Origin: a virus | Length of the DNA stretch: 64,000 nt | Strand: one strand, 5' to 3' | Virus record (IMG/VR): IMGVR_UViG_3300030098_006630 | Span: 1 to 64,000 of that record | Shown: one piece after another, positions 3,722 through 37,599 of the stretch | Layout: every line of letters begins with the position of its first letter | Position numbering within the stretch: position 1 is the first letter of the stretch | The notes under the pieces: generated by a model | Database searches by the model: none | Told to the model about the DNA's origin: nothing | What the model saw: only the letters and a program-made list of their open reading frames with translations | Made by a program: the position numbers and the translations under genes

Positions 3722-5638
3722 ATGAGTTTTTTCAAGCAAGCGATTTTATTAATATTTTTTGTTGTTAGTGGTTGCAGTGAATCTTTTTTAGATAAACCTG
3801 AAATTATTCCTACTCCTCAAGAAGCAATAAACGAACCTCCAACTCCTGTCATATCTTCAGAAGAATATGAAAAGAAATGCCACAGAAGAGAATATTATTT
3901 CTGCCCAGGAGTAGGTGGACCTTTACATCGGATTGAAATAGTAAAAGATATTTGTAAAGACCCCCCGGAAGTTATTTCTATTAGTGAATGTCAGGAGTTT
4001 CTTGAGTGTGACCCCAGTCAATTTAAAATGGGTGAAGAAGACTGCACAACGGACGAAGGACTACCAGGAACTAAAACCATCTATTGTGATAAAGGGTTTA
4101 TTAAAGATGGTCAATGTAAAACTGACTGTGTTGAAGAGATCTGCAACGGCATCGACGATGATTGTGATGGAGAGGTGGATGAAGGTCAATTAAATGCATG
4201 TGGCGAATGCGGCGTAGAAGACCCAGAAATCTGCGACGGTATAGACAATAATTGTAATGGAACGACAGACGAAGATTTAATTCAACCTTGTTCAACTATC
4301 TGTGACCAAGGTTATGAAATCTGCGAAGACGGTAGCTGGAATTCGTGCACCGCAAAACAACCCCAGCCAGAAATCTGCGACGGCATCGATAACGACTGCG
4401 ATGGCGAAGTAGACGAAGATTTAGATTGTTTGTGCACTATAAAAGATATCGGGACTTTATTTCCCTGCGAGGAGGAACCTTTATTGTGTGGAACTGGTTA
4501 TAAAACGTGCGAATGTAAAAACGCCGATTGTACAACTTTAGGGTTTACTCCTTGTTTTGCTATGTGTGCATGGATAATACCAGTGGACTCTGATTGTGAT
4601 CCCTATGCAGGAAAGCCTCTTCCTTATGAATTATGTAACAATCATGATGACAATTGCAATCAATTAATAGATGAAGATTTATATGAAGTGTGTTACACAG
4701 GACCTCCTGAGACTATGGACGTAGGCATATGCCAGTCAGGAATTGCAACTTGTTTCGAAGGCTCTTGGGGTAATTATACCGACGCCGGGGATTTTATATC
4801 TGGATACTGTAAGGATGAAATCTTACCTATGCCTGAAGATAAGTGTAATGGCGAAGATGAAGACTGCGATGGCAAAGTCGATAAAGACAAAGAAATGCAA
4901 GATACCGACATATTGTTTATCGTCGATTGGTCAGGGTCGATGATGGATGAGATAGAAGCAGTCTTAATTGCTTTAAATCAATTTGCAAAAAATTATAAAG
5001 ACGAAGAAGTTATACAATGGGGTTTGATTGTAGGACCAAGAGTACCAGGAACTTACGGAAACAATAATTATCTTGAAATAGTAAGCGATCTTAATTCCTT
5101 TGAAGATTTTATGTCAAGCTTTTCTTCTCTAGACAAAGACACTATGGACGGTCAGTTTGAAATGTTATACGATGCACTGTATTTGGCTATTTTAGATCTT
5201 TCAAGTACGGAACCTTGGCAGCTTGATGAGTTGACATGGACCACTATGGTAGGTTCATCAATCGCTGATTCTATCCCTAGTCTTCAAAATTTTAAGATTA
5301 ACTGGAGACCAAATGCCAAAAGAGTTATTATTGTGTTTTCCGATGAGCATGGACAAAGCTATATGATTCCTAAAAGTATCTTAGGGAGTAACTGGAACTC
5401 TAATTATGATGGCGTAACACAAGGTATTTTATTACAAATGCTAGCTTCAACATCAGAGACAACAGTTTATACTTTTACTAATAAAAACAGCAAAGATGCG
5501 AGTATGCCATTTGGAAACACAGGCTGGGAGCCATTAGCTACTCAATCAGGTGGAAAATGGTTTGAGCTTAAACATAGTCCCGCAGAGATGTATAATAACT
5601 TAATGGAAATAATTGATGCGGAAGTTTGCGGAAATTAA
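3722..5638 (+). CDS. Outer-surface lipoprotein with MopE-type Cys/Asp repeats and a VWA domain
   Basis: Residues 1-18 form a lipoprotein signal peptide ending VVSGC, so Cys18 is the likely lipidated residue. Residues about 139-390 contain five repeats of the EICDGIDNDCDGEVDED type, the Cys/Asp-rich putative metal-binding motif of MopE-like proteins common in Myxococcota and related deltaproteobacteria. Residues about 396-638 form a von Willebrand factor A domain, with the MIDAS-like start DWSGSM after hydrophobic ILFIV and a second acidic motif FSDEH. More than 20 Cys suggest an oxidised, extracytoplasmic fold. It should be exported and anchored in the host envelope, which is unusual for a phage gene. 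Possible roles are adhesion, envelope alteration or superinfection exclusion. The domains are well supported; the role is open. Confidence 0.85.
   Translation: MSFFKQAILLIFFVVSGCSESFLDKPEIIPTPQEAINEPPTPVISSEEYEKKCHRREYYFCPGVGGPLHRIEIVKDICKDPPEVISISECQEFLECDPSQFKMGEEDCTTDEGLPGTKTIYCDKGFIKDGQCKTDCVEEICNGIDDDCDGEVDEGQLNACGECGVEDPEICDGIDNNCNGTTDEDLIQPCSTICDQGYEICEDGSWNSCTAKQPQPEICDGIDNDCDGEVDEDLDCLCTIKDIGTLFPCEEEPLLCGTGYKTCECKNADCTTLGFTPCFAMCAWIIPVDSDCDPYAGKPLPYELCNNHDDNCNQLIDEDLYEVCYTGPPETMDVGICQSGIATCFEGSWGNYTDAGDFISGYCKDEILPMPEDKCNGEDEDCDGKVDKDKEMQDTDILFIVDWSGSMMDEIEAVLIALNQFAKNYKDEEVIQWGLIVGPRVPGTYGNNNYLEIVSDLNSFEDFMSSFSSLDKDTMDGQFEMLYDALYLAILDLSSTEPWQLDELTWTTMVGSSIADSIPSLQNFKINWRPNAKRVIIVFSDEHGQSYMIPKSILGSNWNSNYDGVTQGILLQMLASTSETTVYTFTNKNSKDASMPFGNTGWEPLATQSGGKWFELKHSPAEMYNNLMEIIDAEVCGN
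4133..4900 (+). repeat. Five Cys/Asp-rich coding repeats (MopE-type)
   Basis: Five versions of a roughly 17-codon unit begin near 4136, 4225, 4369, 4627 and 4840. Each encodes a Cys, then five or six residues rich in Gly, Ile, Asp and Asn, a second Cys and an acidic DGxVDED-like tail resembling a calcium loop. The copies differ at the DNA level and are spaced unevenly, so this is an old protein repeat and not a CRISPR or a recent tandem duplication. Confidence 0.8.
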
Positions 5639-11705: not shown

Positions 11706-12176
11706 ATGGAGCGTTGGTTTAGCGGAGCAGGGCAGCTTGTTGATTATGATGCTATTATGGCTGACATAAAATTACATTCTGAGCTTCAAGGTTCCGTTTA
11801 TATTGGCACGGATAGCCACCTGATAAAATCCGAGTGCGTTTTTTCAACTGCCATATGTTTACACGGAGCGCATGATCAAACCGGTGGAAGATATTATTTT
11901 AAAAAAACGCGCTTTCAAAAATCAAAGTTCCCAACACTTCTAGAGAGAATAACATCAGAAGTTCAAAGTTCTATTCATATTGCTATGAATGTATTGGAAG
12001 TGTGCCCTACTGTAGATATTGAACTTCATTTAGATGTTTCTCCGGCTTCAGGAAAAGAAGCTACAAGCAGATTTTCAGACATGCTTGTGGGATATGCCCG
12101 AGGTGTAGGGTTTCCTTGTAAGGTTAAACCAGACGCCTTCGCAGCAACAACCGTAGCAGACAAACATACAAAATAA
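11706..12176 (+). CDS. RNase H-like (DUF458/YkuK-type) protein
   Basis: The 156-residue protein contains VYIGTDSH (residues 31-38, Asp36), the first active-site strand of the DUF458/YkuK-type RNase H-like family, and later IELHLDVSPASGKEATSR with further acidic residues. A C-terminal segment (VADKHTK) matches the family layout. It probably binds or cuts RNA/DNA hybrids or RNA. It lies between the Smr gene and the tmRNA promoter. The fold is likely; the substrate is unknown. Confidence 0.65.
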   Translation: MERWFSGAGQLVDYDAIMADIKLHSELQGSVYIGTDSHLIKSECVFSTAICLHGAHDQTGGRYYFKKTRFQKSKFPTLLERITSEVQSSIHIAMNVLEVCPTVDIELHLDVSPASGKEATSRFSDMLVGYARGVGFPCKVKPDAFAATTVADKHTK

Positions 12177-12184
12177 AAAAAGAC

Positions 12185-12213
12185 TTGAAAACTTGACTGT
12201 TTGATACTATACT
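12185..12213 (+). promoter_or_regulatory. Sigma70-type promoter for the tmRNA
   Basis: TTGAAA at 12185-12190 and TATACT at 12208-12213 are separated by 17 bp, close to an ideal sigma70 promoter. Transcription would begin around 12220, shortly before the mature tmRNA 5' end at 12237. The promoter fits recognition by the host polymerase, so expression may not need phage factors. Confidence 0.7.
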
Positions 12214-12236
12214 TACGGTAAGATCTTTAACAATTT

Positions 12237-12577
12237 GGGGGTGAACAGGTTTTGACTGGTTAAGGAAGATTCTCTGTGCAAGACAGAGGGCTGCGTGGCT
12301 CTGTATAAACGCAGAACTTTTTAAACGCCAACGATAACGTTGTCAACGATTACGCCTTAGCGGCTTAATCAGGTGGTTGTTTCACACCATCTAAACCAAG
12401 TGAAACAAAATAAGAGAAAACTTATAAAAATCAAAACCATCTACTGCAACAGGACGGTAAGCGGTAGATTATAACCGTCTAACTTTGTTGGTTTGTGATA
12501 GAAAATCAACTAATCTTGTGAATGACAGATTATTGGATTTAGACAGGACCTCGGTTCGACTCCGAGCACCTCCACCA
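12237..12577 (+). ncRNA. ssrA: One-piece tmRNA (transfer-messenger RNA)
   Basis: The 5' end GGGGGTG pairs with CACCTCC before a 3' ACCA, giving a 7-bp acceptor stem with a G.U at the third pair, the alanine identity mark. A T-arm with loop TTCGACT (stem CTCGG/CCGAG) lies near 12550-12565. A stem with CTGCG/CGCAG forms the first pseudoknot before the resume codon. The internal frame encodes ANDNVVNDYALAA, with the usual ALAA end. Length is 341 nt, close to bacterial tmRNAs. It would be charged by host AlaRS, bind host SmpB and rescue stalled ribosomes, tagging proteins for Clp-type proteolysis. No SmpB gene was seen in the window. Confidence 0.9.
12327..12368 (+). other. tmRNA tag-peptide reading frame
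   Basis: Thirteen codons from GCC 12327 to TAA 12366 encode ANDNVVNDYALAA. The start ANDNV and end ALAA match the usual style of bacterial tags; the inner VVND is unlike the E. coli tag. The C-terminal LAA is the ClpX recognition signal, so tagged proteins should be ClpXP substrates in a typical host. Confidence 0.85.
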
Positions 12578-12583
12578 AACATT

Positions 12584-12659
12584 GCCATCTTAGCTCAGTT
12601 GGTAGAGCAGCTGATTTGTAATCAGCAGGTCGTCAGTTCGAGTCTGACAGATGGCTCCA
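12584..12659 (+). tRNA. tRNA-Thr (anticodon UGU)
   Basis: The 76-nt sequence folds as a complete cloverleaf: acceptor GCCATCT/AGATGGC, anticodon stem GCTGA/TCAGC with loop TTTGTAA (anticodon TGT at 12617-12619) and T-loop TTCGAGT. CCA is encoded. It reads ACA (and ACN) Thr codons. It starts 7 nt after the tmRNA, so both are probably one transcript. Confidence 0.93.
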
Positions 12660-14621: not shown

Positions 14622-15242
14622 ATGAAAGATTTAATGTGGCTCTCTAAAGAACAAGAAAACAATATTTTTGATGATGGATTTGAGAACAGCTCTTCCTCCT
14701 CAAAAAACAAACTTGAAGTATTGAATAACAAAATTTATTTCTACTGCAATGTAAATCATGTTAACAACCTTCATCTTAATAAAGAGCTTAAAACTCTTGA
14801 ATCAAAACTTATTACTTCTCAAGAACTCCTAGAAACTGAAGAACCAGCACCGATTCATCTTCACATTAGTTCTTATGGTGGTTCCGTTTTCGCTGGATTT
14901 TCTACTATAGATTACATTCTTAAATCTAAAGTACCAGTCACCACTATTATCGACGGCTGTGCTGCTTCTGCTGCTACTATGATGAGTATTTGCGGAGCCA
15001 AGCGATTAATGCACGAGCACGCATTTATGCTCATACATCAGCTTTCCTCTATGTCTTGGGGAAAATACGAAGAATTAAAAGATTCTATGCAAAACAATGA
15101 CTTGCTCATGGAAACAATCAAAAACCTTTACATTGAAAGAACAAAAATTCCTAAAAAAGAGCTTGAAGAAATGTTAAAACGGGATCTTTGGTGGGACGCC
15201 AAGACGTGTCTTAAATACGGATTAATTGACGAGATTATATGA
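14622..15242 (+). CDS. ClpP-like serine protease
   Basis: The 206-residue protein has the ClpP/crotonase-fold peptidase signatures: HLHISSYGGSVFAG (the oxyanion region), GCAASAATMM with the nucleophile Ser116, and FMLIHQLSS with His139. The length matches ClpP. The first 27 residues are Ser/Asn-rich and lack a clear propeptide. A typical ClpP needs a Clp ATPase (ClpX or ClpA) to unfold substrates, and none is seen here, so host ATPases would be needed; alternatively it processes virion proteins. It overlaps the next gene by 4 nt. The gene 2 kb upstream is a tmRNA, which tags proteins for such proteases. Confidence 0.85.
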   Translation: MKDLMWLSKEQENNIFDDGFENSSSSSKNKLEVLNNKIYFYCNVNHVNNLHLNKELKTLESKLITSQELLETEEPAPIHLHISSYGGSVFAGFSTIDYILKSKVPVTTIIDGCAASAATMMSICGAKRLMHEHAFMLIHQLSSMSWGKYEELKDSMQNNDLLMETIKNLYIERTKIPKKELEEMLKRDLWWDAKTCLKYGLIDEII

Positions 15243-15978: not shown

Positions 15979-16791
15979 TTATTTTAACTTGATATCTAAG
16001 AGATGATTTTTAGTATCAAATACACTATCTTCCTTGGTTCCATCTACTTCTAAAGATACTCCATCTGGTACATGAAACGGCGTATGTTTATAAATGTAAT
16101 TTATAAGTTGTGAATGTGTAGGTCCAAAAGATAAATGGTGGAATCTAGTGTGCACCGAATGAATCATTCCAACTAATTTTCCTCTAGTATTAAAAAGAGG
16201 AGAACCGGAAGAACCTCCAATCGCAGGGACTGTGTATAAAGAAAATCCCCATTTATACCCAGAGTATCTCCCCTCCAATACAGGCGCAGTTTGGGTATTA
16301 AACATTCCAACTGGTGCAGCAATATTATAAATCATATCACCAATAACTGGTGCATCATTTCTTTCTATTCTAACAGGAGCTTTAGAAAATCCTTTTGCGT
16401 ATAATATACATGTATCCAGTTTGTTATTGATATTTATGGTTATAGTTTGGTGTTTTATACCATTCATATCAATAAGGAATGTTTTTTGTTTTATCTTCGC
16501 CCCGCCCCCTAAATCATGTAGAATCGCACGAGGATCACAGCTGTGCCCTGTAGTTAAAATATAAGAACCATGCTCATAAGCTCTTACTACTGCTCCACTT
16601 GATGTAGCTCCGAGTTTAAAGTTCATGCACGTTTTTCCAACGCACTTAACCACATCATAACTGGCAACAACTTTTACAAACGAATCAAAAGGAAGTTTGT
16701 TTTTTAATGAAAAATGTCCATTAAGTGTACCTCCGCAAGATGCCAAAAATATCAATGAAATCATTAATATAAGAAATTTCAAACTTTTCAT
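15979..16791 (-). CDS. Trypsin-like serine protease, exported lipoprotein
   Basis: Residues 1-19 are a lipoprotein signal peptide ending LASC (Cys19 likely lipidated). The catalytic triad of the trypsin (S1) fold is complete: His83 in LTTGHSC, Asp126 in NNKLDTCIL and Ser195 in GGSSGSPLF. Cys pairs near 50/55 suggest a disulfide. There is no PDZ domain, unlike HtrA/DegP. The protein should work in the periplasm or at the cell surface, perhaps on host envelope proteins or on incoming phage. It is on the opposite strand to its neighbours, with its own promoter region facing the PhoH gene. AAGGAG lies upstream of the ATG. Confidence 0.85.
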   Translation of the reverse strand: MKSLKFLILMISLIFLASCGGTLNGHFSLKNKLPFDSFVKVVASYDVVKCVGKTCMNFKLGATSSGAVVRAYEHGSYILTTGHSCDPRAILHDLGGGAKIKQKTFLIDMNGIKHQTITININNKLDTCILYAKGFSKAPVRIERNDAPVIGDMIYNIAAPVGMFNTQTAPVLEGRYSGYKWGFSLYTVPAIGGSSGSPLFNTRGKLVGMIHSVHTRFHHLSFGPTHSQLINYIYKHTPFHVPDGVSLEVDGTKEDSVFDTKNHLLDIKLK

Positions 16792-16861: not shown

Positions 16862-18187
16862 ATGAAAAAAACATACGTCTTCGACACAAGTGCTATTTTG
16901 TCAGACTATAAATGCATCTATGAATACAAAAAAAACGATATTGTTATTCCTTTTAAGGTGTTAGAAGAAATTGACGCGCAGAAAAAACGACAAGATGGTG
17001 TCGGGTTTAATGCACGTATGATTATTAGAGAGCTTGATCTTTTAAGAGCTAAAGGAAATATTTATCGAGGTGTCCGTATAGAAAAAGGGAAAGGTTTATT
17101 ATCTATTCGAGGGTATGATAAAAATCTTTTACCTGATGAATATAAATTATCGAGTGCAGACAATGAGATTATTGGAACAGCCATAACAGAAAGAAAAAGA
17201 AATTTCTCTCGTCAAGTTATCATGGTCACTAAAGATATCCACATGCGTGTTAAATGCGATACATTAGAATTGCCATGTGAAGATTATGATAAAGATAAAA
17301 TAAACAATACTAGCCACGAATCATACACCGGAGTAGTTGAGCATGTTTTAGATGATAAACTTATAGATTATTTTTATGAAGGTCAAGAAGTTTATCTAGA
17401 CAAAAAAGAAATCCAATTGCACCCTAATCAGTGCATTCTTTTTAAATCAAATCAAGATTTTAAAAAAACCGCACTCGCAAAATTTGTTGATTATGACACG
17501 CCAATTAAAAAAATTCCCACTATCAAAAGAGGTATTTGGGGAGTAAAACCAAAAAACAAAGAACAGGTTTTTGCTTCTAATCTTCTCATGAGTGAAGACA
17601 TTCCTATTGTGTCTTTAGTAGGACCAGCAGGTTCAGGAAAAACGTTACTAGCTATAGCAGCGGGCTTAGAACAAACACTTGGCATGGGTCTTTACAATAA
17701 ACTTGTAATCTCTAGACCTGTCCAGCCAGTTGGTAAAGACATTGGATTTTTACCAGGAACCGTCGAAGAAAAAATGAACCCTTGGCTTGCTCCGATTAGA
17801 GACAACCTTGAGTTTTTAATGTCCTACTCTTATTCTAAAAGAGATAACTACGAAACTCTTGATACCTATATTGAATCAGGCGTCATTGAAGTAGAAGCCT
17901 TGACTTACATCCGAGGTCGCTCTATTGCAAATGCTTATATTATTATTGATGAATCTCAGAACTTAACAGCACATGAATTAAAGACTATAATAACTCGTGT
18001 AGGAGAAAATACAAAAATTATCTTAACAGGAGACGTTGAACAGATAGATAATCTCTATGTTAATCAACAATCAAATGGTCTATCATATGCGATAGAAAAG
18101 TTTAAAGAACACGATTTAGCAGCCCACTTAACTTTAAAAAAAGGCGAAAGAAGTGCAGTTGCGACATTAGCATCAAAAATATTATAG
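16862..18187 (+). CDS. phoH: PIN-PhoH fusion ATPase
   Basis: Residues about 1-140 form a PIN-type nuclease domain (YVFDTSAIL at the start, with Asp and Glu in VLEEID and a second acidic site near SADNE). Residues about 235-441 form PhoH: Walker A GPAGSGKT at 254-261, a Walker B-like IIIDESQN, and ILTGDVEQID. This is the YlaK/PhoH2 layout (about 440 residues), in which a PIN ribonuclease is joined to an RNA-helicase-like ATPase. It should unwind and cut RNA. PhoH is common in marine phages. Key PIN acids are present, so the nuclease is probably active. An AAGGAA site precedes the start. Confidence 0.88.
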   Translation: MKKTYVFDTSAILSDYKCIYEYKKNDIVIPFKVLEEIDAQKKRQDGVGFNARMIIRELDLLRAKGNIYRGVRIEKGKGLLSIRGYDKNLLPDEYKLSSADNEIIGTAITERKRNFSRQVIMVTKDIHMRVKCDTLELPCEDYDKDKINNTSHESYTGVVEHVLDDKLIDYFYEGQEVYLDKKEIQLHPNQCILFKSNQDFKKTALAKFVDYDTPIKKIPTIKRGIWGVKPKNKEQVFASNLLMSEDIPIVSLVGPAGSGKTLLAIAAGLEQTLGMGLYNKLVISRPVQPVGKDIGFLPGTVEEKMNPWLAPIRDNLEFLMSYSYSKRDNYETLDTYIESGVIEVEALTYIRGRSIANAYIIIDESQNLTAHELKTIITRVGENTKIILTGDVEQIDNLYVNQQSNGLSYAIEKFKEHDLAAHLTLKKGERSAVATLASKIL

Positions 18188-20224: not shown

Positions 20225-21484
20225 GTGACAGAAAAAATGAAGATCTTAACGATTTCTGACAGCCCCCTCGCTCCTAGTGGCGTTGGAACACAGACTAATT
20301 ATATGATTCAAAGCCTTCTTAGGACAGGGAAATATAAATTTGTTTCTATAGGCGGCGCGATTAAACATCAAGATTACAAACCTATCAAGACGGAAGAATG
20401 GGGAGATGATTGGGTTATTATTCCTGTCGATGGATATGGAAGTCAAGAACAAATTCGTTCAATGATTAGAACTGAAAGACCCGACATGCTTTGGTTCATG
20501 ACAGATCCTCGTTTCTTCGGTTGGTTATGGGAAATTGAAGATGAAGTAAGACCGTTATGTCCCATGGTGTATTACCATGTATGGGATAATTTTCCTTATC
20601 CTCACTATAATGAACCTTTATATTCATCTAATGACGTTATTGTCACTATTTCTAAGGTTACAGATGAGTGTGTAAGAAATGTGTCTCCTGATACTGAATG
20701 TATCCATTTGCCCCATGCCGTCCCTAGTGATACTTTTAAACCTTTTCCTAAAGATGTGGTAGAAAATCTAAAGAAAGACAACTTTGGAGATGAAAAAGAA
20801 AAATTTATTTGTTTTTGGAATAACCGAAACGCTCGAAGAAAGCATTCGGGTACTCTAATTTTTTGGTGGAAAAAGTTTTTAGATAAAGTGGGGCACGATA
20901 AAGCAAAGCTTGTCATGCATACCGATGTAAGAGATCCTTACGGACAAAATCTTCAATCTATTATTGAAGCGACAGGACTAACAAATGGAGAAGTTGTGTT
21001 CTCTCAAAATAAAGTCAATCTTAAAGACTTAGCTGCACTTTACAACATGGCAGACTGTACCATTAATATTTCCGACGCCGAGGGGTTTGGTTTGGCAACA
21101 CTAGAGTCCCTATCTTGCGAGACTCCGATTATTGTTACAATGACCGGGGGTCTTCAAGAACAGGTGACAGACGGAGAAGATTGGTTCGGCGTAGGAATTG
21201 AGCCCAGCTCTAAAACAGTAATTGGCTCTCAAGAAATTCCTTATATTTATGAAGATCGTATTAATGAAGATGATTTTATAAATGCACTTTTAAAAATTTA
21301 TAACATGTCCAAAGAAGAACGAGAAAACCTTGGAAAGAAAGGAAGAGAACATGTTCTTAATAATTACAGCTTCGATCTTTATACAAAAAGATGGGACGAA
21401 GTTTTCGAAAAAGTAAAAAATGAACGTGGTTCATGGAGTACGAGGAAGAATTATCAAACTTGGAATTTAAGCGAGGTTAAGTAA
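20225..21484 (+). CDS. GT-B glycosyltransferase (family 4-like)
   Basis: The 419-residue protein starts with a GTG (MTEKMKILTISDS). The C-terminal half holds SDAEGFGLATLESLSCETPII and MTGGLQEQVTDG, the nucleotide-sugar binding signature of GT-B (GT4-type) enzymes (E-x7-E motif). The N-terminal half has a Gly-rich SGVGTQTNYM acceptor-side loop. It transfers a sugar from a nucleotide donor to a glycan or lipid carrier. It is the first gene of the glycan cluster and overlaps the next gene by one base. Donor and acceptor cannot be told from sequence. Confidence 0.85.
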   Translation: MTEKMKILTISDSPLAPSGVGTQTNYMIQSLLRTGKYKFVSIGGAIKHQDYKPIKTEEWGDDWVIIPVDGYGSQEQIRSMIRTERPDMLWFMTDPRFFGWLWEIEDEVRPLCPMVYYHVWDNFPYPHYNEPLYSSNDVIVTISKVTDECVRNVSPDTECIHLPHAVPSDTFKPFPKDVVENLKKDNFGDEKEKFICFWNNRNARRKHSGTLIFWWKKFLDKVGHDKAKLVMHTDVRDPYGQNLQSIIEATGLTNGEVVFSQNKVNLKDLAALYNMADCTINISDAEGFGLATLESLSCETPIIVTMTGGLQEQVTDGEDWFGVGIEPSSKTVIGSQEIPYIYEDRINEDDFINALLKIYNMSKEERENLGKKGREHVLNNYSFDLYTKRWDEVFEKVKNERGSWSTRKNYQTWNLSEVK

Positions 21485-22731
21485 TGAGAAAAAAGATTTT
21501 AGTTAATGGACCGGCTCTATCTCAGTCCGGGTATGGAGAGCATACAAGATTTTTATTGCGCTCTTTAAAAACAAGAGAAGACGTTTTTGATATTTATCTA
21601 AACAATCTTAATTGGGGAAAAACAAATTGGTTGTTTGAAGATAATGACGAACGTCGCTGGATTGATTTCTTGTTGCAAAAAACGATGTTTCATGCTCAAC
21701 AGCGTGGCTCATTCGATTTATCCGTCCAGGTCACCATCCCTAATGAATGGCAACAAATAGCCCCGGTGAATATTGGCGTAACAGCAGGTATCGAAACGAC
21801 TAAAGTCGCGCCCCAATGGATAGAGAAGTCTTGGGGAGTAGATAAAATAATCACCATTTCAGAACATTCTAAAAATACGTTTGAAAATACTTCTTACCAG
21901 GCTACGAACAATCAGACAGGAGAAAAATTTACTGCTAAGTGCACCACTCCCATAGAGATTGTTCATTATCCTGCCAAAGTACAAGAAAAGAAAACATTGG
22001 ACATGGATTTTGATTATGACTTTAACTTTCTAACTGTTGCTCAGTGGGGTCCTAGAAAAAACCTGGAAAACACAGTAAAATGGTTCATGGATGAGTTTAA
22101 AGATAAGGAAGTAGGGCTAATTGTTAAAACAAATTTTGCTAAGAACTGTCTTTTAGATAGAAGATTAACATACAATAACCTACGCGGACTATTAGAGCAG
22201 GATAAAGATAGAAAATGTAAAGTTTATTTACTTCATGGCTACTTGACTGACGCAGAAATGAATTCGGTATATCAACATCCTAAAGTTAAGTGTCTCTTGT
22301 CTGCAACTCATGGTGAAGGCTTTGGTCTTCCTATATTTGAAGCTGCATATAACGGATTGCCTATTATTGCACCAGCATGGTCAGGTCATGTAGATTTTCT
22401 TTACATGCCCAAGAAAGATAAAAATGGCAAGATTAAAAATAAATCCATGTTTTCTAAGGTGGATTATAATCTCATACCAGTCGCAGAGCAAGCTGTCTGG
22501 GAGGGTGTTGTTCAAAAAGACTCTATGTGGTGCGATGTCAAAGAATCGTCTTTTAAAATTAAAATGAAAGACATGATAGACAACTGGGAACGTCATAAAA
22601 AACGAGCGCTAGACTTACAAGAATATGTTTTAGATAATTTTAATCAAGAAAAACAATATAAAACATTTGTAGACAGTATTTTATCGGTTGTGGAGTCTCC
22701 TAAAGAAGAAGAGCTTGTTGAATTTGATTAA
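21484..22731 (+). CDS. GT-B glycosyltransferase (family 4-like)
   Basis: The 415-residue protein has the GT4-type signatures HGEGFGLPIFEAAYNGLPIIAP near residues 275-300, and FLTVAQWGPRKNLENTV near 185. The start overlaps the previous stop by 1 nt (TAATGAG). The N-terminal half begins VNGPALSQSGYGEHTRF, an acceptor-side glycine-rich loop similar to the previous gene's. The two may add consecutive residues, since both share a layout. Function beyond glycosyl transfer is not visible. Confidence 0.85.
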   Translation: MRKKILVNGPALSQSGYGEHTRFLLRSLKTREDVFDIYLNNLNWGKTNWLFEDNDERRWIDFLLQKTMFHAQQRGSFDLSVQVTIPNEWQQIAPVNIGVTAGIETTKVAPQWIEKSWGVDKIITISEHSKNTFENTSYQATNNQTGEKFTAKCTTPIEIVHYPAKVQEKKTLDMDFDYDFNFLTVAQWGPRKNLENTVKWFMDEFKDKEVGLIVKTNFAKNCLLDRRLTYNNLRGLLEQDKDRKCKVYLLHGYLTDAEMNSVYQHPKVKCLLSATHGEGFGLPIFEAAYNGLPIIAPAWSGHVDFLYMPKKDKNGKIKNKSMFSKVDYNLIPVAEQAVWEGVVQKDSMWCDVKESSFKIKMKDMIDNWERHKKRALDLQEYVLDNFNQEKQYKTFVDSILSVVESPKEEELVEFD

Positions 22732-22740
22732 AGGAAGAAA

Positions 22741-24351
22741 ATGAATATAATTTATATCTCAGATTTCTTTGTAGAGCATATAGCCGGTGGAGGGGAACTT
22801 GTTGACGATTGTCTAATAAAGCATCTTTCTTCACGCGGCTTTTCTGTTTCCAGGGTTCAATCTAACAGCGTTACCCCTGTTTTTATTCAACAGAACAAGG
22901 ACAAGTTTTTTATTGTTTCTAATTTTGTTAATCTTGATAAACCTCAAAAGAAAGCTCTTGAGAATTGTCGATATATTATCTATGAACATGATCACAAATA
23001 CATTCTAGAGAGAGATCCTTCCCCATATAAAGACTTTATTGTCCCTGCGGATAGATTGTATAACTTATCTTTTTATAAAAGCGCTCAAGCAGTGATTTGT
23101 CAATCCAAATTACATGCCGAAGTTCTTCGCAAGAACATTAAATCAGATAATATCGTTTCTGCTGGTTGCACCCTATGGTCAAAAGAACATCTAGAGATTC
23201 TTAAAAAACACCTAGACACAGAAAAAACTAATAAAGTCGCAGTGTTAGATTCTGACAATCGCGTAAAAGGTCGTATTCAGGCTTTAGATTACTGTCAAAA
23301 GAAAAACTTGGACTATGAACTCATTAAATCACCCAACTATGAGGAGTTCATTGGACAACTTGCCTCAAAAAGTTCGTTAGTCTTCTTCTCGCAGGTATTA
23401 GAGAGTTTCTGTAGGCTCGTCGTAGAAGCCCGTATTCTCGGTTGTAAGCTCATTACGAACAAAATGAATGGTTGTGCATCTGAAGATTGGTTTAAAGCCT
23501 CTAAGGGGGCAAAACTCCTTGAATATGTGGAAAATAAACAAGAAGAAGTGGTGGATTTGTTTGTTTCTCTTATAAATGAAGAGAAAAAAGCTTCAAAAAA
23601 CCAAAAAACAGGCGATATTACAGTAATTTTAAACTCCTACAGGCGTCCATACAACCTAAAGATGCAGATTGAGGCTTTAAAAGCCCAATCTGTAGTCCCA
23701 AAAGAGATTTGGTTGTGGGTAAATGCCCATGAAGACAACAAAGATTTCGATTATTCGGGTTTAGGGCTCGATAAAATCTTCAATAACGACTTTAATTGGA
23801 AGTTTTACGGCAGATTTGCCGGTGCTTTACTTGTAGATACCGAATATGTCGCTATTTTCGACGACGACACGATTCCAGGCTCAAAATGGTTCGAAAATTG
23901 TCTAAATACGATGAAAACACACGAAGGTATTCTTGGATCTGCCGGAATCGTGCTAAATGACAAGTTTTATGTCCAACATGACCGTTGTGGTTGGCCAACT
24001 AGCAATAAAGAGACCACAGAGGTCGATTTAGTGGGTCATGCATGGTTTTTTAAGCGAGATTGGCTCCAATACCTCTGGAAAGAGAAGCCACCGACCTGGG
24101 ATAACGCAGAAGACATACAATTTTCTTATTCTGCTCAAAAATACGGCAATATCAAGACATATTGCCCTCCACACCCTCCAGAAGACCGAGAAATGCACGG
24201 ATCTATCCTTGGAAACGAACTTGGCATAGATAATAAGGCAACTTCGACCAATTCTGCCGTTTCTCACCAACAATTCTTCTCTGAAAGGGACTTTTGTGTG
24301 CAATATGCCCTTAAAAATGGGTGGAAAACAGTACGAGGAGTCACATTATGA
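22741..24351 (+). CDS. Two-domain glycosyltransferase (GT-B-like plus GT-A)
   Basis: The 536-residue protein is a fusion. The N-terminal part (about 1-285) is a GT-B-like fold with a Gly-rich IAGGGELVDD loop near the start and SQVLESFCRLVVEARILGC near its end, similar to the E-x7-E region. From residue about 292 a GT-A/GT2-like domain follows: ITVILNSYRRPYNL, then AIFDDDTIPG with the metal-binding DDD at 374-376. One polypeptide may add two sugars in turn. It overlaps the WecB-like gene by 4 nt (ATGA). Confidence 0.82.
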   Translation: MNIIYISDFFVEHIAGGGELVDDCLIKHLSSRGFSVSRVQSNSVTPVFIQQNKDKFFIVSNFVNLDKPQKKALENCRYIIYEHDHKYILERDPSPYKDFIVPADRLYNLSFYKSAQAVICQSKLHAEVLRKNIKSDNIVSAGCTLWSKEHLEILKKHLDTEKTNKVAVLDSDNRVKGRIQALDYCQKKNLDYELIKSPNYEEFIGQLASKSSLVFFSQVLESFCRLVVEARILGCKLITNKMNGCASEDWFKASKGAKLLEYVENKQEEVVDLFVSLINEEKKASKNQKTGDITVILNSYRRPYNLKMQIEALKAQSVVPKEIWLWVNAHEDNKDFDYSGLGLDKIFNNDFNWKFYGRFAGALLVDTEYVAIFDDDTIPGSKWFENCLNTMKTHEGILGSAGIVLNDKFYVQHDRCGWPTSNKETTEVDLVGHAWFFKRDWLQYLWKEKPPTWDNAEDIQFSYSAQKYGNIKTYCPPHPPEDREMHGSILGNELGIDNKATSTNSAVSHQQFFSERDFCVQYALKNGWKTVRGVTL

Positions 24352-25355
24352 TGTTAATTTGCTTCGGCACACGCCCCGAATACATCAAAATTAAGCCTAT
24401 TTTGGACGTTTTTAAGGGTGAAATACCCTATAAAATCCTGTTTACAGGGCAACATACCGACCTTTTAGCCCATATTGAGGGTGATTTTGTGCGTTTAAAT
24501 GTCCAAAATGGCGATAATCGCCTAGATTCTATTGTTTCGTCTATAATGAATCAGGGTCATATTTTTGAAAACGTTACCTCTGTAATGGTTCAAGGAGACA
24601 CAACATCGGCATTTGCAGTGGCTTTGGCAGCATTTCACAGGCAAATTCCTGTTATTCACCTTGAAGCTGGGCTTAGAACCTATGATTTAGCCCACCCTTA
24701 CCCTGAAGAATTTAATAGACAAGCTATTTCGCGCCTAGCAGCGGTTAATTTATGCCCTACTGCGAGAAGTTACTCGAATATAGAGGGAGAAAAGACTCCA
24801 GGGCAACGTTTTATAGTGGGAAACACTGTTTTAGACAATTTAACTCATTTAACGCCTTCTTATAATGATAATGTAATTGTAACGATGCATCGCCGTGAAA
24901 ATCACCACTGGATGGACCAATGGTTTATTAAAATAGATGAATTGGCGGCAAATCACCCTGAATTAAACTTTATTCTACCATTACATCCTAATCCCAATGT
25001 CAAAAAGCACGTAGAGCTTCTTCAAAACGTTCTTGTGATAGATCCGGTGCCATATGACGATTTCATGAGCATGCTAGCATCTTGCAAATTTGCTATCACT
25101 GATAGTGGAGGACTACAAGAAGAATTATCTTTCTTTAACAAGCTTTGTATCGTATGTAGAACCCAAACCGAACGGAAAATGGGTATTGGAACTTTTTCTT
25201 TTTTATGTAAGCATCCTGATGACCTGTCTAGACTCTTTGATAACGTAAATAGTAACTACCAATCGGCAGAGGGTATATCGTCGCCCTATGGTGACGGAAA
25301 ATCTTCAGAAAAAATATTAAAACTTATAAAGGATGGCTATGTCCAAGGGATTTAA
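24348..25355 (+). CDS. wecB: UDP-N-acetylglucosamine 2-epimerase-like protein
   Basis: ATG 24348 overlaps the previous stop (ATGA) and has GAGGAG upstream; a longer in-frame start at 24321 is less likely. The 335-residue protein has the family signatures GTRPEYIKIKPI, QGDTTSAFAVALAAF, HLEAGLRTYD, PEEFNRQAISRLA, TMHRRENHHW and TDSGGLQEELSF. WecB/MnaA converts UDP-GlcNAc to UDP-ManNAc, or in related enzymes makes other amino-sugar nucleotides. It is slightly shorter than usual (about 375). In this locus it would supply a ManNAc-type donor. Confidence 0.88.
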   Translation: MMLICFGTRPEYIKIKPILDVFKGEIPYKILFTGQHTDLLAHIEGDFVRLNVQNGDNRLDSIVSSIMNQGHIFENVTSVMVQGDTTSAFAVALAAFHRQIPVIHLEAGLRTYDLAHPYPEEFNRQAISRLAAVNLCPTARSYSNIEGEKTPGQRFIVGNTVLDNLTHLTPSYNDNVIVTMHRRENHHWMDQWFIKIDELAANHPELNFILPLHPNPNVKKHVELLQNVLVIDPVPYDDFMSMLASCKFAITDSGGLQEELSFFNKLCIVCRTQTERKMGIGTFSFLCKHPDDLSRLFDNVNSNYQSAEGISSPYGDGKSSEKILKLIKDGYVQGI

Positions 25356-26121
25356 GGAAGATTTTTTTAATCTTCTCAATAAATTAAAAAATAATGAGCA
25401 TTTTGCCTTTACTCGCTTCTCAGACGGCGAAGTTTTCGTTATGGAGAACAAGCATTTGATCTTACAGGAGAAATTTTGTAAAGTCGGTGATTTAATACAT
25501 AATTTTGGATACTCTGAGGATGATCATAAGGAATTCGACCCTGACAAGCATCAATTTGTGCGTAAAAAGCTCATGGACGCTTTTAACTTCAAGAAAGAGA
25601 ATTATTTTGTAGGTGCAGGATGTAACAACTGTACTTGTGAGATTAGAAACCAAATTCCTTGGCTAAAAGAAATGAGACCAGGAGACGAAGAGCACTGGAC
25701 TTCTCCCAATCTGCTTGTTAACTCGAATTATCCTCTTTTCGTGACACAATTTGTGCCAGAGTTTGCAAATCACAAGGTGGTAATGATTTGCAGCGAGAAA
25801 GCCAAGTTTGATAAGGCTCCTTTTGATGTTGTAAAAGATTTCAGAGTTGGAAAGAATTGTATTGTCAACGACCATCATCTTGAAGAGGAAATCAAGACCT
25901 GGATGGATGAGAATAATGTCGAGGATCATTTATTTTTATTTTCTGCGTCAAGTTTAAGTGAGATACTTATTCACAAGCTCTTTGAGCATAACACTAAAAA
26001 CACTTATATGGATATTGGGACATGTCTACATCCATATCTCGGATTGACAGTGGAAAGAGATTATCTTAGAGCTTATTGGAACAATGGATTCCACCCTGAT
26101 TTGTTTAAGGAGTGCGGCTGA
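25339..26121 (+). CDS. GT-D fold glycosyltransferase-like protein
   Basis: The second ATG (25339) follows AAAGGA at a good distance, so it is favoured over ATG 25333. The product (260 residues) begins with HFAFTRFSDGEVF, whose Asp29-Gly30-Glu31 matches the conserved DxE of the GT-D (DUF1792-like) glycosyltransferases. Four Cys lie close together in GCNNCTCEI. It overlaps the end of the WecB-like gene by 17 nt, and its stop shares a base with the next start. Glycosyl transfer is likely; the donor is unknown. Confidence 0.65.
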   Translation: MSKGFKEDFFNLLNKLKNNEHFAFTRFSDGEVFVMENKHLILQEKFCKVGDLIHNFGYSEDDHKEFDPDKHQFVRKKLMDAFNFKKENYFVGAGCNNCTCEIRNQIPWLKEMRPGDEEHWTSPNLLVNSNYPLFVTQFVPEFANHKVVMICSEKAKFDKAPFDVVKDFRVGKNCIVNDHHLEEEIKTWMDENNVEDHLFLFSASSLSEILIHKLFEHNTKNTYMDIGTCLHPYLGLTVERDYLRAYWNNGFHPDLFKECG

Positions 26122-26501
26122 TGGATTTTGTAAAGAATAAAAAAGAATACTGGGAATTTATTCGTGAATTAAGAAACGATGAACGAGTCAAGAACGGATT
26201 CATCCAGCAAGACCATATTGAAAGGGAAAATCACTTAAAATACATGGAAAAATATGGTAATAATTTCTATATCTGTTTGATTGACGGAACTCCTGCTGGT
26301 TATGTTGGAGTTATCGATAGAGATATAAGAGTCGCTACCCATCCAGATTATCAAGGAAAAGGCGTAGGTAAATTTATGATAAACGCTATGATGAACTTGC
26401 ATCCTGATGCATTCGCAAAGGTGAAAATAGAAAACATTCCCAGCTTAAGATTATTTGAAGCGTGCGGATTTACTAAGAAGTATTACATTTTGGAGAAATA
26501 A
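26121..26501 (+). CDS. GNAT-family acetyltransferase
   Basis: ATG 26121 overlaps the previous stop (TGATG), with AAGGAG 8 nt upstream. The 126-residue protein shows the GNAT fold: RVATHPDYQGKGVGKFMINAM, whose QGKGVG (78-83) is the acetyl-CoA-binding motif A, and later FEACGFTKKYYILEK. It may N-acetylate an amino sugar made by the neighbouring aminotransferase, as in viosamine- or bacillosamine-type pathways. Sugar acetylation is inferred from the next gene. Confidence 0.8.
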   Translation: MDFVKNKKEYWEFIRELRNDERVKNGFIQQDHIERENHLKYMEKYGNNFYICLIDGTPAGYVGVIDRDIRVATHPDYQGKGVGKFMINAMMNLHPDAFAKVKIENIPSLRLFEACGFTKKYYILEK

Positions 26502-27124
26502 TGTTACATAACCCATATAAAATAGTGAAAATGTTTGAAGAGGAAGTAGCATACTATACCGGAGCGCCTTTCGCTGTCTCTCTGAATAGTTGCACTAACG
26601 CTCTGTTTCTTGCTTGTAAATGGGCTGGAGTCAAAGACAAGGAAGTTATCATTCCTAAAAGAACATACCTATCTCCTCCTCAATCAATCCTTCAAGCAGG
26701 AGGAAAGCTCGTTTTTGACGACCGAAAGTGGGAAGGGATTTATCAATTAAAGCCGTTCCCTATATATGACGCAGCAAAGCGTCTTACCTCTGGCATGTAT
26801 ATACCGGGTACATTCATGTGTTTAAGTTTTCACATCAAGAAACACCTTAAAATCGGCAAGGGAGGTATGATATTATGTGACAGTGAAGAGGCTGTTAAGT
26901 GGTTCAAAGCCCGCCGCTATGAAGGACGAACTGATGGCATGAAGTATCATGAAGACACCATAGATGAAGAAGGGTGGAATATGTATATGACACCAGAACA
27001 GGCAGCTAGAGGATTAATGCTTATGCAAAATTATCCTCAACATATGTCGGATATACCAGAAAACCCTCCATATCGAGATTTAACGGAATTTGACTTATTC
27101 AAAGACATAGAGGTAAGGAAATAA
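26501..27124 (+). CDS. Very compact DegT/StrS-type aminotransferase
   Basis: The protein has 207 residues, against 360-400 for usual sugar aminotransferases, yet keeps the core: NSCTNALFLA near 29-38 (phosphate loop), IYDAAKRL with Asp90 (PLP pyridine contact) and SFHIKKHLKIGKGG with the Schiff-base Lys114. The section of about 50 residues that normally precedes the Asp is missing, and so is most of the C-terminal small domain. It may be a small new branch of the family or a degraded copy; intact motifs and tight packing between genes argue for function. Expected product: an amino-sugar nucleotide. Starts 1 nt into the previous stop. Confidence 0.72.
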   Translation: MLHNPYKIVKMFEEEVAYYTGAPFAVSLNSCTNALFLACKWAGVKDKEVIIPKRTYLSPPQSILQAGGKLVFDDRKWEGIYQLKPFPIYDAAKRLTSGMYIPGTFMCLSFHIKKHLKIGKGGMILCDSEEAVKWFKARRYEGRTDGMKYHEDTIDEEGWNMYMTPEQAARGLMLMQNYPQHMSDIPENPPYRDLTEFDLFKDIEVRK

Positions 27125-27125
27125 A

Positions 27126-27746
27126 ATGCTTAGAAGTGATATTGTCAATAGTTTTATAAAAAAATACGACTACAAGACTTACTTGGAAATTGGCTACGGG
27201 AATGGGGATACTTTTCATAAGATAGAGCTTCCTGTAGAAGATAAAATTGGCGTTGACGGCGGAAATGGAACCCCTCAAAACGACGCATATGTTACACGAA
27301 TGACATCTGATAAATTTTTTGAATTAAATAAAAAATTCACTAATAAAAAATTTGATATTATTTTTATTGACGGCTCTCATCTTTGGGAGGATGTAGAAAA
27401 TGACATGATTAATTCTTTAGACTGTCTAAACGAAGGCGGAACAATTGTGATGCACGATTGCAATCCTGAAAATGTTCACTGGCAAGAAAGAAGCCAATCT
27501 CCTCTTGTACCTGGGTGGAACGGCGATACTTGGAAGGCATTTGTTAAGTTTAGATCAACACGGGAAGATTTAGAGATGTTTGTAGTAGATACAGATTTTG
27601 GCTGCGGAGTTGTAAGACGCGGCTCTCAAGACCCTTTGAATCTAAATTTAGAAAAATCTTTATTATATGAAGCTTTTGAGCCAAACAAAAAAGAGTGGCT
27701 TAATTTAATTTCCATTGAAGAGTTTACAAGCAAGGTCGAGGTTTAA
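27126..27746 (+). CDS. SAM-dependent methyltransferase
   Basis: The 206-residue protein has class I methyltransferase motifs: YLEIGYGNGDT (residues 19-28, SAM-binding loop), IGVDGGNG, FDIIFIDGSHLWEDV (the Asp-Gly-Ser-His of the Methyltransf_24 type) and GGTIVMHDCNP. It probably methylates a sugar or glycan in this cluster. It starts just after the aminotransferase gene. The site of methylation is unknown. Confidence 0.82.
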   Translation: MLRSDIVNSFIKKYDYKTYLEIGYGNGDTFHKIELPVEDKIGVDGGNGTPQNDAYVTRMTSDKFFELNKKFTNKKFDIIFIDGSHLWEDVENDMINSLDCLNEGGTIVMHDCNPENVHWQERSQSPLVPGWNGDTWKAFVKFRSTREDLEMFVVDTDFGCGVVRRGSQDPLNLNLEKSLLYEAFEPNKKEWLNLISIEEFTSKVEV

Positions 27747-27749
27747 AAA

Positions 27750-28574
27750 ATGATTTACTTTGTTACGATGCACCATAACACTGATAATTTTGTCAACCTA
27801 CAAGCCCAGAACATTAAAAACTATACTCCTGAAGTTTTTACAAAATATAAAGTTTATTGCGGCTTATCAGGGGTCCCGGATTACCGAGGCGAAGAAAATA
27901 ATTTCACTAATTATTCATTTTTTAATATTACTGAAGTCATGAATCAGCATTGGTTTAGAATGAATTGGTTAGTAGACAGAATTAAAGAAAATGAAACTAT
28001 TGAAGATGATGATATCTTAGTGTTCCTGGACGGTGACGCTTTCCCAGTAGATTTTTGGTATCCTAAAATTGTAGAACTTCTTAAAGAAAATGAAATGGTC
28101 GCCGCCGACCGACGCGAAGATATTGAACCTCTTTTAGCCGAAGAAATGAAGCCCTACCCTCATCCTTTGTTTTTGGCAACAAAAGCAAAATTCTGGATTG
28201 AGAATGAATTAAAATGGGGAATTGATGAAAGCAAAGGAATATCTACTCCTGGCTGTCTTTTAAAATTATGGCTTGAAGAAAATGATTATTCTTACGCACC
28301 TTTAGTACGAACAAATGTATTTGATATTCATCCTTTGTTTTTTGGTGTTTACGGAGACTTAATTTATCATCATGGAGCAGCTTCTGGTTTGGAAAAAGTA
28401 TATGGCTCTAGTGACATATGGACGCGACCAGACCTATCCAAAAAATATGGAGTAGCTTTAGATATCCATGTCCCAGCTATTCCGGCTTTTAATGGATATA
28501 TGTCAAATTTAGTATGGCAAGCTATAATCAACTTACCTAATTTCATTAATGTATATTTCCGTGGAAAGGAGTAA
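27750..28574 (+). CDS. GT-A fold glycosyltransferase-like protein
   Basis: The 274-residue protein carries DDDILVFLDGDAFPVDFW near residues 90-105; the DGD corresponds to the metal-binding DxD of GT-A enzymes. A second conserved-looking block, FGVYGDLIYHHGAASG, supplies His residues near the end that could bind the metal. It may transfer a sugar or a nucleotide-sugar component. No closer family was recognised. It ends 1 nt before the start of the next gene's ATG. Confidence 0.68.
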   Translation: MIYFVTMHHNTDNFVNLQAQNIKNYTPEVFTKYKVYCGLSGVPDYRGEENNFTNYSFFNITEVMNQHWFRMNWLVDRIKENETIEDDDILVFLDGDAFPVDFWYPKIVELLKENEMVAADRREDIEPLLAEEMKPYPHPLFLATKAKFWIENELKWGIDESKGISTPGCLLKLWLEENDYSYAPLVRTNVFDIHPLFFGVYGDLIYHHGAASGLEKVYGSSDIWTRPDLSKKYGVALDIHVPAIPAFNGYMSNLVWQAIINLPNFINVYFRGKE

Positions 28575-28575
28575 T

Positions 28576-29403
28576 ATGAAGAATTTAAAAAGATTAATTT
28601 TTGGATCAGGGAAGCTAGGGCAACACCTATCTAACGAAGAGACTTTATGCATTCCTAGAGAAAAGTGTGATATATCTGATAGCGCTAAAATTCAACAAAT
28701 TTTTGATTCGCTCCCTATGAAGCCAGAAGTAGTGATTAATTGTGCAGCAAAGACCAATTTGGAGTTTTGTGAAAGCAATAAAGATGTTGCCTTTCAGACG
28801 AATACTGTAGGTGTAGCCAATTTACTAGAGAACTGCGCTCAGAAAAATATTAAATTTGTTCATATTAGTAGCGGGTGTCTTTTCGACGGCAACGATTCCA
28901 TATCCACAGAAGAAAGTATCCCTACACCTGCTGCATGGTATACATATACAAAAAAATGGGCAGATGAATATATCGAGAATTATGGATATGAAAATTACCT
29001 AATCTTGCGCCCAAGACAAATGATTTCAGCCAGAGCAAACCCTACCAACATGTTAACCAAGTTCTGTAATTATAAGCGCATTTTTGTTCATAAAGAACCT
29101 AACTCTATTACTTGCGTTGAGGATTTTTGCGATATGTTAAATTTCTTGGTTGAAAATAATAAAAATGGCATTTATAATTGTTGTAATGATGGTGTAGTCA
29201 CTCCTTATGATATCGCCACAGGAATTAAAGAGTATATTTTACCTGAACTTGAAGTAACTGAAGCATCCTATGAACATACTCTTACTTTGCAGGCAAATAA
29301 GCGCGTGAATACAATTTTATCTAATGACAAACTTAAGGAAGCAGGATTCACTCCCCGCCATGCTAAGGATGCCTTAAGGTGGTGTTTAGAAAATTATGAG
29401 TAA
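28576..29403 (+). CDS. RmlD-like sugar-nucleotide reductase (SDR)
   Basis: AAAGGAG sits 6 nt before ATG 28576. The 275-residue protein is an extended SDR: LIFGSGKLGQHL (GxGxLG cofactor loop), VINCAAKTNLEFCE, VHISSGCLFDG and Tyr122-x-x-x-Lys126 (YTYTK). The CESNKDVAFQTN and SGCLFDG blocks match the RmlD family (dTDP-4-dehydrorhamnose reductase), which reduces a 4-keto sugar nucleotide. With the RmlB-like gene at 37600 it could complete a 6-deoxyhexose such as rhamnose, but RmlA and RmlC are absent. Confidence 0.78.
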   Translation: MKNLKRLIFGSGKLGQHLSNEETLCIPREKCDISDSAKIQQIFDSLPMKPEVVINCAAKTNLEFCESNKDVAFQTNTVGVANLLENCAQKNIKFVHISSGCLFDGNDSISTEESIPTPAAWYTYTKKWADEYIENYGYENYLILRPRQMISARANPTNMLTKFCNYKRIFVHKEPNSITCVEDFCDMLNFLVENNKNGIYNCCNDGVVTPYDIATGIKEYILPELEVTEASYEHTLTLQANKRVNTILSNDKLKEAGFTPRHAKDALRWCLENYE

Positions 29404-30151
29404 AATCGCACTTGTTATAAATACCATTAGCAAAAATAAAGATATCTGGAATATGTTCTTTAATCAGATTGAAAAGCACGTTCCTTCGTCTTTTTTTGCA
29501 AAAAAATACATCTTTGTTGATAAAACAGAAGACGCATTACCAGACGATTACGAAGTAATATATTATGATACGAGCAAAAAATATAGAGATCAATTTTTAA
29601 CTGGAATATCGCAAGTACAGGAAGAATATTGTATCTATATTTCGGAAGATTACATCCTTTACGAAAACATCGCAGGAGACTTAATAAAAGAATATGCGAC
29701 CGTATTAAACAATAACCCTCATTTGTCTTTTGTTAGATTTGTAAAAGGGGGAATAATAAACATCCCTTTTCCATGTTTTCAAGGAAGGAAAGACCTTTTT
29801 GAACTCCACCACTCTATACCTTATTTCTACACTAATCAAGCAGCGGTTTGGAAGACTAGAGATTTAGAAAAAATACACTACCATGGACCTAACTTACATA
29901 TTGCTAATATGGATTATGAAAATTCTTTTGAGTGGCGGGCAACAAAAACCTGCCAAGAACTTGATATAAAAGGTCTTTTTTGTTATCATGGCGAACCAAA
30001 GAGAGGTATGTATCACTATGACTCCACTGTTTTTCCACACGTAGCTACCGCACTAGTCAAAGGCAAATGGAACTTGAGTGAATATACAAAAGAATTGTCT
30101 CCTTTAATAGAAGAATACAAGATAGACACTAGTCAACGAGGAGCTGTTTAA
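29396..30151 (+). CDS. Probable GT-A glycosyltransferase
   Basis: The 251-residue protein starts IALVINTISKNKDIWNMFF and has an acidic metal site candidate in YCIYISEDYILYENI (residues about 77-90, Glu-Asp-Tyr). The end has many aromatic and His residues (KRGMYHYDSTVFPHVAT). This fits a GT-A-like fold, but no signature family was recognised. It overlaps the SDR gene before it by 8 nt and the next by 1 nt, so it is clearly part of the coupled operon. Confidence 0.6.
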   Translation: MSKIALVINTISKNKDIWNMFFNQIEKHVPSSFFAKKYIFVDKTEDALPDDYEVIYYDTSKKYRDQFLTGISQVQEEYCIYISEDYILYENIAGDLIKEYATVLNNNPHLSFVRFVKGGIINIPFPCFQGRKDLFELHHSIPYFYTNQAAVWKTRDLEKIHYHGPNLHIANMDYENSFEWRATKTCQELDIKGLFCYHGEPKRGMYHYDSTVFPHVATALVKGKWNLSEYTKELSPLIEEYKIDTSQRGAV

Positions 30152-34163: not shown

Positions 34164-34179
34164 CGTCAAAGGAAAAATT

Positions 34180-34581
34180 ATGACTAATAGAAAATATTTA
34201 CCCACACTATCCGAGCTTATAGATCGCCTCTCTATTGTTCAATTAAAAGAGGTGTTTATTCCTGAGCACAAAATGGAATATTCTCAGGAAATCAAAGATA
34301 TTGTTCACGATATCCAACTATCTCTAAATGAAGGTGGAAAAATTACTGCCGAAACAATTAGAGCAATCGTTGTTCTTTCACAGATGAACTTACACATTTG
34401 GCACAATGAATCCAACTATCGCAAAGGAATTAAAGATGGCAACAATCTTGAATTAACTCACGGTATCAATGGCATTAGAAACACTGCTAAAAATAAAATC
34501 CAAGAGATTGTTGGAGGCAGGAAAGACTACAAAATTGATTGTCTCGCCGCAGATTTCAAAGATTGGGAAGTAAGCTGGTAG
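34180..34581 (+). CDS. Hypothetical protein in the glycan cluster
   Basis: ATG 34180 has AAAGGA 7 nt upstream. The 133-residue helical protein starts RKYLPTLSELIDRLSIVQLKEV, followed by an acidic helix and NLHIWHNESNYRKG (possible metal or ligand site). The strong pattern of a helical bundle with LPTLSELIDRLSIVQLKE looks familiar from small proteins near phage and bacterial glycan genes, but I cannot name it. It overlaps the next gene by 1 nt. Function unknown. Confidence 0.55.
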   Translation: MTNRKYLPTLSELIDRLSIVQLKEVFIPEHKMEYSQEIKDIVHDIQLSLNEGGKITAETIRAIVVLSQMNLHIWHNESNYRKGIKDGNNLELTHGINGIRNTAKNKIQEIVGGRKDYKIDCLAADFKDWEVSW

Positions 34582-35604: not shown

Positions 35605-35607
35605 CAA

Positions 35608-37598: not shown

Positions 37599-37599
37599 G

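Follow-up and report, generated by a model that had tools for sequence, protein, structure and literature searches.

The 64,000-nucleotide stretch of viral DNA analysed here (the window) contains at positions 12237-12577 what is probably a working, phage-encoded one-piece tmRNA. tmRNA is an RNA that frees stuck ribosomes, and the unfinished proteins are tagged for destruction. The molecule is of a known kind, while its phage-specific tag class and its boxA-like leader were not found described in the open-licence literature. Our explanation builds on computed gene anatomy, structural constraint, tag class, the leader motif with its enrichment, and gene order, and it is from these that we infer expression, charging, use of SmpB, tagging and Nus binding. 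The features are compiled in Table 1.

An IMG/VR record of 97,175 bases contains the window. It represents a fragment of the phage, near relatives of which attain 158-185 kb. Because the record carries terminase, portal and baseplate genes, gene content leaves no doubt about its assignment to a tailed phage. Among named phages, Flavobacterium phage immuto and Microcystis phage Mel-JY01 have the nearest terminases, with 43-45% identity. Phage tmRNAs had been called known but uncommon in a preliminary description of this DNA, a fair statement in view of their presence in 402 of 18,146 phage genomes, i.e. about 2% (PMC9004378). Earlier examples are Bacillus phage G and the mycobacteriophages Bxz1 and Wildcat (PMC4131195), and the OM43 phage Melnitz has a two-piece tmRNA behind a glutamine riboswitch (PMC9004378). 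With all of these the window phage shares the carriage of a tmRNA gene, a rare but known trait. It differs from Melnitz in that its tmRNA is one-piece, is preceded by a boxA-like leader and is followed by ClpP-like and PhoH genes; the leader and these two genes had gone unmentioned in the preliminary description.

Table 1. Features of the tmRNA locus in the window and of RNA elements at related loci
Feature	Position	Strand	Evidence
One-piece tmRNA (ssrA)	12237..12577	+	ARAGORN, Rfam RF00023, fold z -4.79
Acceptor stem 5' strand GGGGGTG, including G3 of the G3.U70 alanine identity pair	12237..12243	+	7/7 paired with 12567-12573
Acceptor stem 3' strand CACCTCC, discriminator A, encoded CCA	12567..12577	+	sequence, pairing
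PK1: ACAGAG/CTCTGT (12283-12288 with 12299-12304) and CTGCGT/ACGCAG (12291-12296 with 12309-12314)	12283..12314	+	pairing read from sequence
Tag reading frame, resume codon GCC, ANDNVVNDYALAA, stop TAA	12327..12368	+	ARAGORN, coding part 91-132 of gene
Putative sigma-70-type promoter-like site TTGAAA-17-TATACT	12185..12213	+	consensus scan, 10/12 matches
boxA-like element GATCTTTAACA	12222..12232	+	sequence; related phages have it at the corresponding place
tRNA-Thr(TGT), 6 nt 3' of tmRNA	12584..12659	+	ARAGORN, Rfam
RNase H-like protein (PF04308), just 5' of tmRNA	11706..12176	+	Pfam E 2.9e-27
Stand-alone ClpP-like serine protease, 206 aa, triad S116/H139/D188	14622..15242	+	PF00574 E 6.7e-28, PHROG, E. 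coli ClpP alignment
PhoH-like ATPase	16862..18187	+	phrog_2765 E 9e-113; synteny
Upstream RNA element (relatives)	L138:4600-4780; L071:2484-2664; L124:12531-12711; L140:4580-4760; further L150:5895-6075; L155:1849-2029; seven more	+; +; -; +; -; +	
Stand-alone RNA element, interval between MoxR-like AAA ATPase and CCHC zinc-knuckle genes	L178:15921-16073; L164:1832-1983	+; +	T-run after closing helix (terminator-like)

Identity and structural constraint of the tmRNA

The preliminary description had reported a complete one-piece tmRNA and had proposed a covariance search and an ARAGORN run as a check. Both recover the gene: ARAGORN places a one-piece tmRNA with the tag ANDNVVNDYALAA on the plus strand, its ends falling exactly on 12237 and 12577, and RF00023 is matched at full length (model 1-374) at the same coordinates with 105.4 bits against a cut-off of 47 (E 3.7e-40). 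This is the sole tmRNA match in the 97,175-base record. The predicted fold of the tmRNA strand lies 4.8 standard deviations below dinucleotide shuffles. Two observations weigh against a working gene: at 105 bits the window tmRNA scores below many relatives (120-140), and TTTGAC replaces the TTCGAC of the RF00023 consensus. The T-arm, intact charging signals and encoded CCA that had been described are indeed present: all seven pairs of the acceptor stem GGGGGUG/CACCUCC are formed, with GU at pair 3 and an encoded ACCA thereafter, and the T-stem is paired at 5/5 positions. Around the tag frame, reading the pairing by eye gives a clear pseudoknot PK1 and plausible pseudoknots PK2 and PK3. The near-consensus promoter was likewise recovered, as a 10/12 match at 12185-12213. 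With RF00023 tmRNAs such as E. coli ssrA the gene shares the full-length model match, the resume codon GCC, a tag that ends in ALAA, G3.U70 and a T-arm, as well as a putative promoter of its own.

The earlier suggestion that the tmRNA is used gains support from a comparison of those non-redundant phage tmRNAs in which a T-loop can be recognised (n=55). The seven acceptor pairs and G3.U70 are kept in 55/55, two-sided (compensatory) changes occur at acceptor pairs 4-6, and the T-stems are complete in every one of them, a pattern consistent with a functional RNA. In the sister phage L004 the adjacent tRNA-Thr, located just after position 8000, is shortened and no longer recognised; the tmRNA is intact. 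One sister phage with a tag ending in YAQAA has an incomplete encoded CCA. In named phages, the relatives of the window tmRNA were T-arm/tRNA matches only, and two related tmRNAs gave no blastn match there.

The tag and its class

The tag had been described as unusual, and this holds: outside the window's own record, which was left out of the scans, exact ANDNVVNDYALAA did not occur in 2.9 million viral contigs or in 84,980 bacterial and archaeal species genomes. The class ANDNVxxxYAxAA, in which the three inner residues and position 11 are free, is present in 108 uncultured viral stretches, while the YALAA form (inner residues free, YALAA fixed) was met in one contig among the 84,980 species genomes; the two counts rest on slightly different patterns, with YALAA occurring in most viral tags. 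The lone bacterial contig stems from a Hyphomonadaceae MAG. Neither ARAGORN nor Rfam recognised a one-piece tmRNA in it, so that the tmRNA of this MAG is probably of the two-piece type, which is the usual one in the class containing Hyphomonadaceae. The ratio of 108 viral stretches to one bacterial contig argues that the tag class is phage-typical, and as far as these scans can tell ANDNVxxxYAxAA is a phage-lineage tag found almost only in viruses. This sets the 13-residue ANDNVxxxYALAA tag of the window, almost absent from the bacteria scanned, apart from that of E. coli ssrA. A tag that is typical of phages does not point to a host, and the hint at Myxococcus or its group that had been drawn from the first residues of the tag is not borne out. 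We rejected this inference, which found no support in the bacterial-genome tag scans or in a literature search; queries for an ANDNV tag in the open-licence literature returned unrelated text matches only. E. coli-type tags in IMG/VR were set aside as a yardstick: among the matches listed, many contigs bear isolate-genome numbers and share the same match offset, and they are probably prophages integrated at the host ssrA.

Within the class, the commonest tag is ANDNVEFDYALAA (n=29), and the inner VND of the window tag is unique. At position 11, which the search pattern did not fix, 75 of the 76 distinct tags have L, I, V or M, specified by several codons. This would be expected if the tag is translated and has to end as a degron, and it speaks for selection on such a degron. 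The exception is the tag ANDNVELNYAQAA of the sister phages L004 (7637-8000, plus strand) and L005 (7576-7975, plus strand), which ends in YAQAA and thus has Q at this position. In the E. coli tag, the leucine found there matters for ClpX. Degradation of products carrying the YAQAA tag would therefore be expected to be weaker, and a natural weakening of the degron is possible in these two phages.

A boxA-like sequence in the leader

In the window, promoter and mature 5' end are separated by GGTAAGATCTTTAACAATTT, and the 24-nt leader carries a boxA-like sequence just before the mature end. This element, GATCTTTAACA, agrees at 10/11 positions with GYTCTTTAANA, a published gamma-proteobacterial boxA consensus (PMC5725501). 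In the sister phages it reads GTTCTTTAAAA, which matches the consensus exactly, as do the elements of several phages. A second phage family, whose tag is ANTDTYSEYALAA, has GTTCTTTGAAA in its leader. In its near match to the consensus and its early position in untranslated or leader RNA the element resembles boxA of rRNA leaders and of suhB, where NusB/NusE-SuhB antitermination operates (PMC5725501); unlike these, it precedes a tmRNA and resides in a phage. We found no report of boxA before tmRNA in the open-licence literature, and non-coding RNAs were outside the boxA search of the authors cited (PMC5725501).

Enrichment was assessed in 59 leaders, non-redundant at 80% identity. A relaxed boxA core, defined by a regular expression that was written after seeing the leaders, is present within 24 nt of the 5' end in 24/59, about five of these hits (L063, L072, L087, L090 and L118) resembling the T-rich ends of the upstream ORF. 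Other plus-strand upstream windows have the core in at most 2/59 cases, one window inside the tmRNA in four, and the opposite strand of the same leader window in 0/59. In 16 of the 24, the core begins 13-14 nt ahead of the GGGG of the mature 5' end, and the strict form is found in 12 of the 59 leaders. The motif was absent from 80 phage tRNAs (0/80) and from 31 Pseudomonadota ssrA genes including that of E. coli (0/31; Fisher p 7e-6), which in this respect differ from the window tmRNA; this bacterial control is richer in G+C than the phages, a bias of which the in-phage flank control is free. Among the 59 leaders, the element is thus position- and strand-specific beyond chance. As a general promoter element of the window phage it was rejected, since other strict matches in the record lie mostly inside long ORFs.

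Neighbouring genes

The tRNA-Thr gene is likely to be co-transcribed with the tmRNA. The RNase H-like gene on the other side is also found near tmRNA in other families. The residues S116, H139 and D188 of the ClpP-like protein align with the triad of E. coli ClpP. By score it is not a canonical ATP-dependent ClpP, reaching 58.8 bits against the TIGR00493 cut-off of 308.6, and 111 against 120 for Clp_rel_HeadMat. A role as the only prohead protease was rejected, because a second head maturation protease, of gp21 type, is encoded beside the portal gene, together with terminase, elsewhere in the record. Of the related loci that extend 6 kb or more downstream of the tmRNA (n=31), 27 encode PhoH on the tmRNA strand, 22 of these within 5 kb downstream; the PhoH proteins form 23 clusters with a median identity of 62%. 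In about a dozen of these loci a ClpP-like gene separates tmRNA and PhoH. The conserved order of tmRNA, ClpP-like and PhoH genes may reflect common descent rather than a functional module, and it does show long retention of the tmRNA. No SmpB gene was found in the 97,175-base record or in ten relatives. The window tmRNA is thus distinguished from bacterial ssrA by being phage-borne with no phage SmpB found.

Further genes were noted in passing. A trypsin-like peptidase is encoded between the ClpP-like and PhoH genes on the opposite strand (15979-16791, minus strand), and a 638-aa protein with two matches to a MopE-type metal-binding motif (PF11617) at 3722-5638 on the plus strand. Glycosyltransferase, acetyltransferase, aminotransferase-like and two nucleotide-sugar epimerase genes make up a surface-sugar cluster at approximately 20225-38550. 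In several related phages (L073 and about 20 related loci), a tubulin/FtsZ-like ORF, recognised by eye from a GGGGGTGS motif, lies just 3' of the tmRNA, in L073 at +212 from the tag.

A pseudoknotted RNA preceding the tmRNA of related phages

A conserved RNA element, about 150-200 nt long and comprising three hairpins and two pseudoknots, is located 5' of the boxA-like element and tmRNA in 13 phages of the tag class. Its alignment (A3) contains 34 proposed pairs, 87% of which are formed and 23 of which show two-sided changes, and its covariation score is 0.396 as compared to 0.216 for shuffled and at most 0.144 for slid alignments. RNAalifold independently predicts a GRCTC/GAGYC helix, the last hairpin and part of the long helix. 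No Rfam family matches the element. A covariance model finds it 5' of the tmRNAs of the training set. The model also gives new hits to stand-alone copies in two relatives of the window phage, G002 and G003, flanked there by genes for a MoxR-like ATPase and a zinc-knuckle protein; the G002 copy is weak and was not reported in a whole-record search with faster filters. Before the window tmRNA the element (R1) is not there according to the covariance model (E 1.7), and the corresponding part of the genome lies outside the window's record. A riboswitch and an autonomous RNA are both open as interpretations.

Proposed mode of action and alternatives

We propose that the tmRNA would be transcribed from its own sigma-70-type promoter together with tRNA-Thr, that RNase P would mature the 5' end to the GGGGGUG acceptor strand and that alanine would be charged via G3.U70. 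The SmpB that binds it is presumed to be that of the host because none was found in the record or in the ten relatives. Stalled host ribosomes would then be released during infection with addition of the tag ANDNVVNDYALAA, and the tagged product would be degraded by Clp-type proteases, possibly including the phage ClpP-like subunit. We give roughly even chances to the idea, drawn from the leader motif, that NusB/S10 antitermination accompanies transcription of the phage tmRNA as it does that of rRNA; bound at the boxA-like leader, NusB and S10 would probably shield the untranslated transcript from Rho and help it to fold, as they do in rRNA.

That the gene is instead a decaying or passenger copy, i.e. 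a host-derived tmRNA carried along with the tRNA after selection was lost, appears improbable. Relaxed constraint would also fit the unique inner VND of the window tag, and the two sister phages with YAQAA, one of them without a complete encoded CCA, agree with such a view; however, acceptor stem, G3.U70 and T-stem are intact throughout the 55 related tmRNAs, bacterial genomes offer no similar tag class as a recent source, in L004 it is the neighbouring tRNA that decays before the tmRNA, and retention of the tmRNA across diverged phages is old and broad. We regard it as very improbable that the molecule mainly titrates SmpB or blocks host trans-translation, as proposed for mycobacteriophage DS6A, the tRNA-like-domain-only molecule of which has been interpreted as a decoy and provides a precedent (PMC4131195). 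With no SmpB of its own found, the phage would have to compete for that of the host, which would suit such a role, but the mRNA-like domain, resume codon, tag frame, stop and hydrophobic degron end, all of which are kept, would be needless for a decoy.

The leader is a closer case. Its motif could be a conserved initially transcribed or processing sequence rather than boxA, e.g. a leader signal for RNase P or part of a phage promoter, a reading that we place somewhat short of an even chance. The fixed spacing of 13-14 nt to the mature 5' end also fits a processing signal, yet phage tRNAs, which are likewise RNase P substrates, lack the motif, the distribution of strict matches over long ORFs in the record argues against a general promoter element there, and several phages match the rRNA boxA consensus exactly. 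Returning to a working tmRNA with a boxA-like leader, a wider reading for a broad lineage of uncultured large phages can be formulated tentatively, and we consider it rather doubtful as a whole: the tmRNA may be a dedicated gene, organised as an rRNA-like unit under NusB/S10-boxA antitermination and in some phages placed behind a new pseudoknotted leader RNA that maybe senses the state of infection, and it may work with the ClpP-like protein and PhoH as a translation quality-control cassette with a phage-specific tag.

Biological significance

It is an open question why phages retain a tmRNA although their hosts already have one. A phage-specific tag makes it directly testable, as phage- and host-tagged proteins can be separated by mass spectrometry or with antibodies. 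If the boxA-like leader works, Nus-factor antitermination would be extended from rRNA to phage tmRNA, and the phage would need a high tmRNA output. The conserved leader RNA of the relatives is a candidate for a new class of regulatory RNA tied to ribosome rescue.
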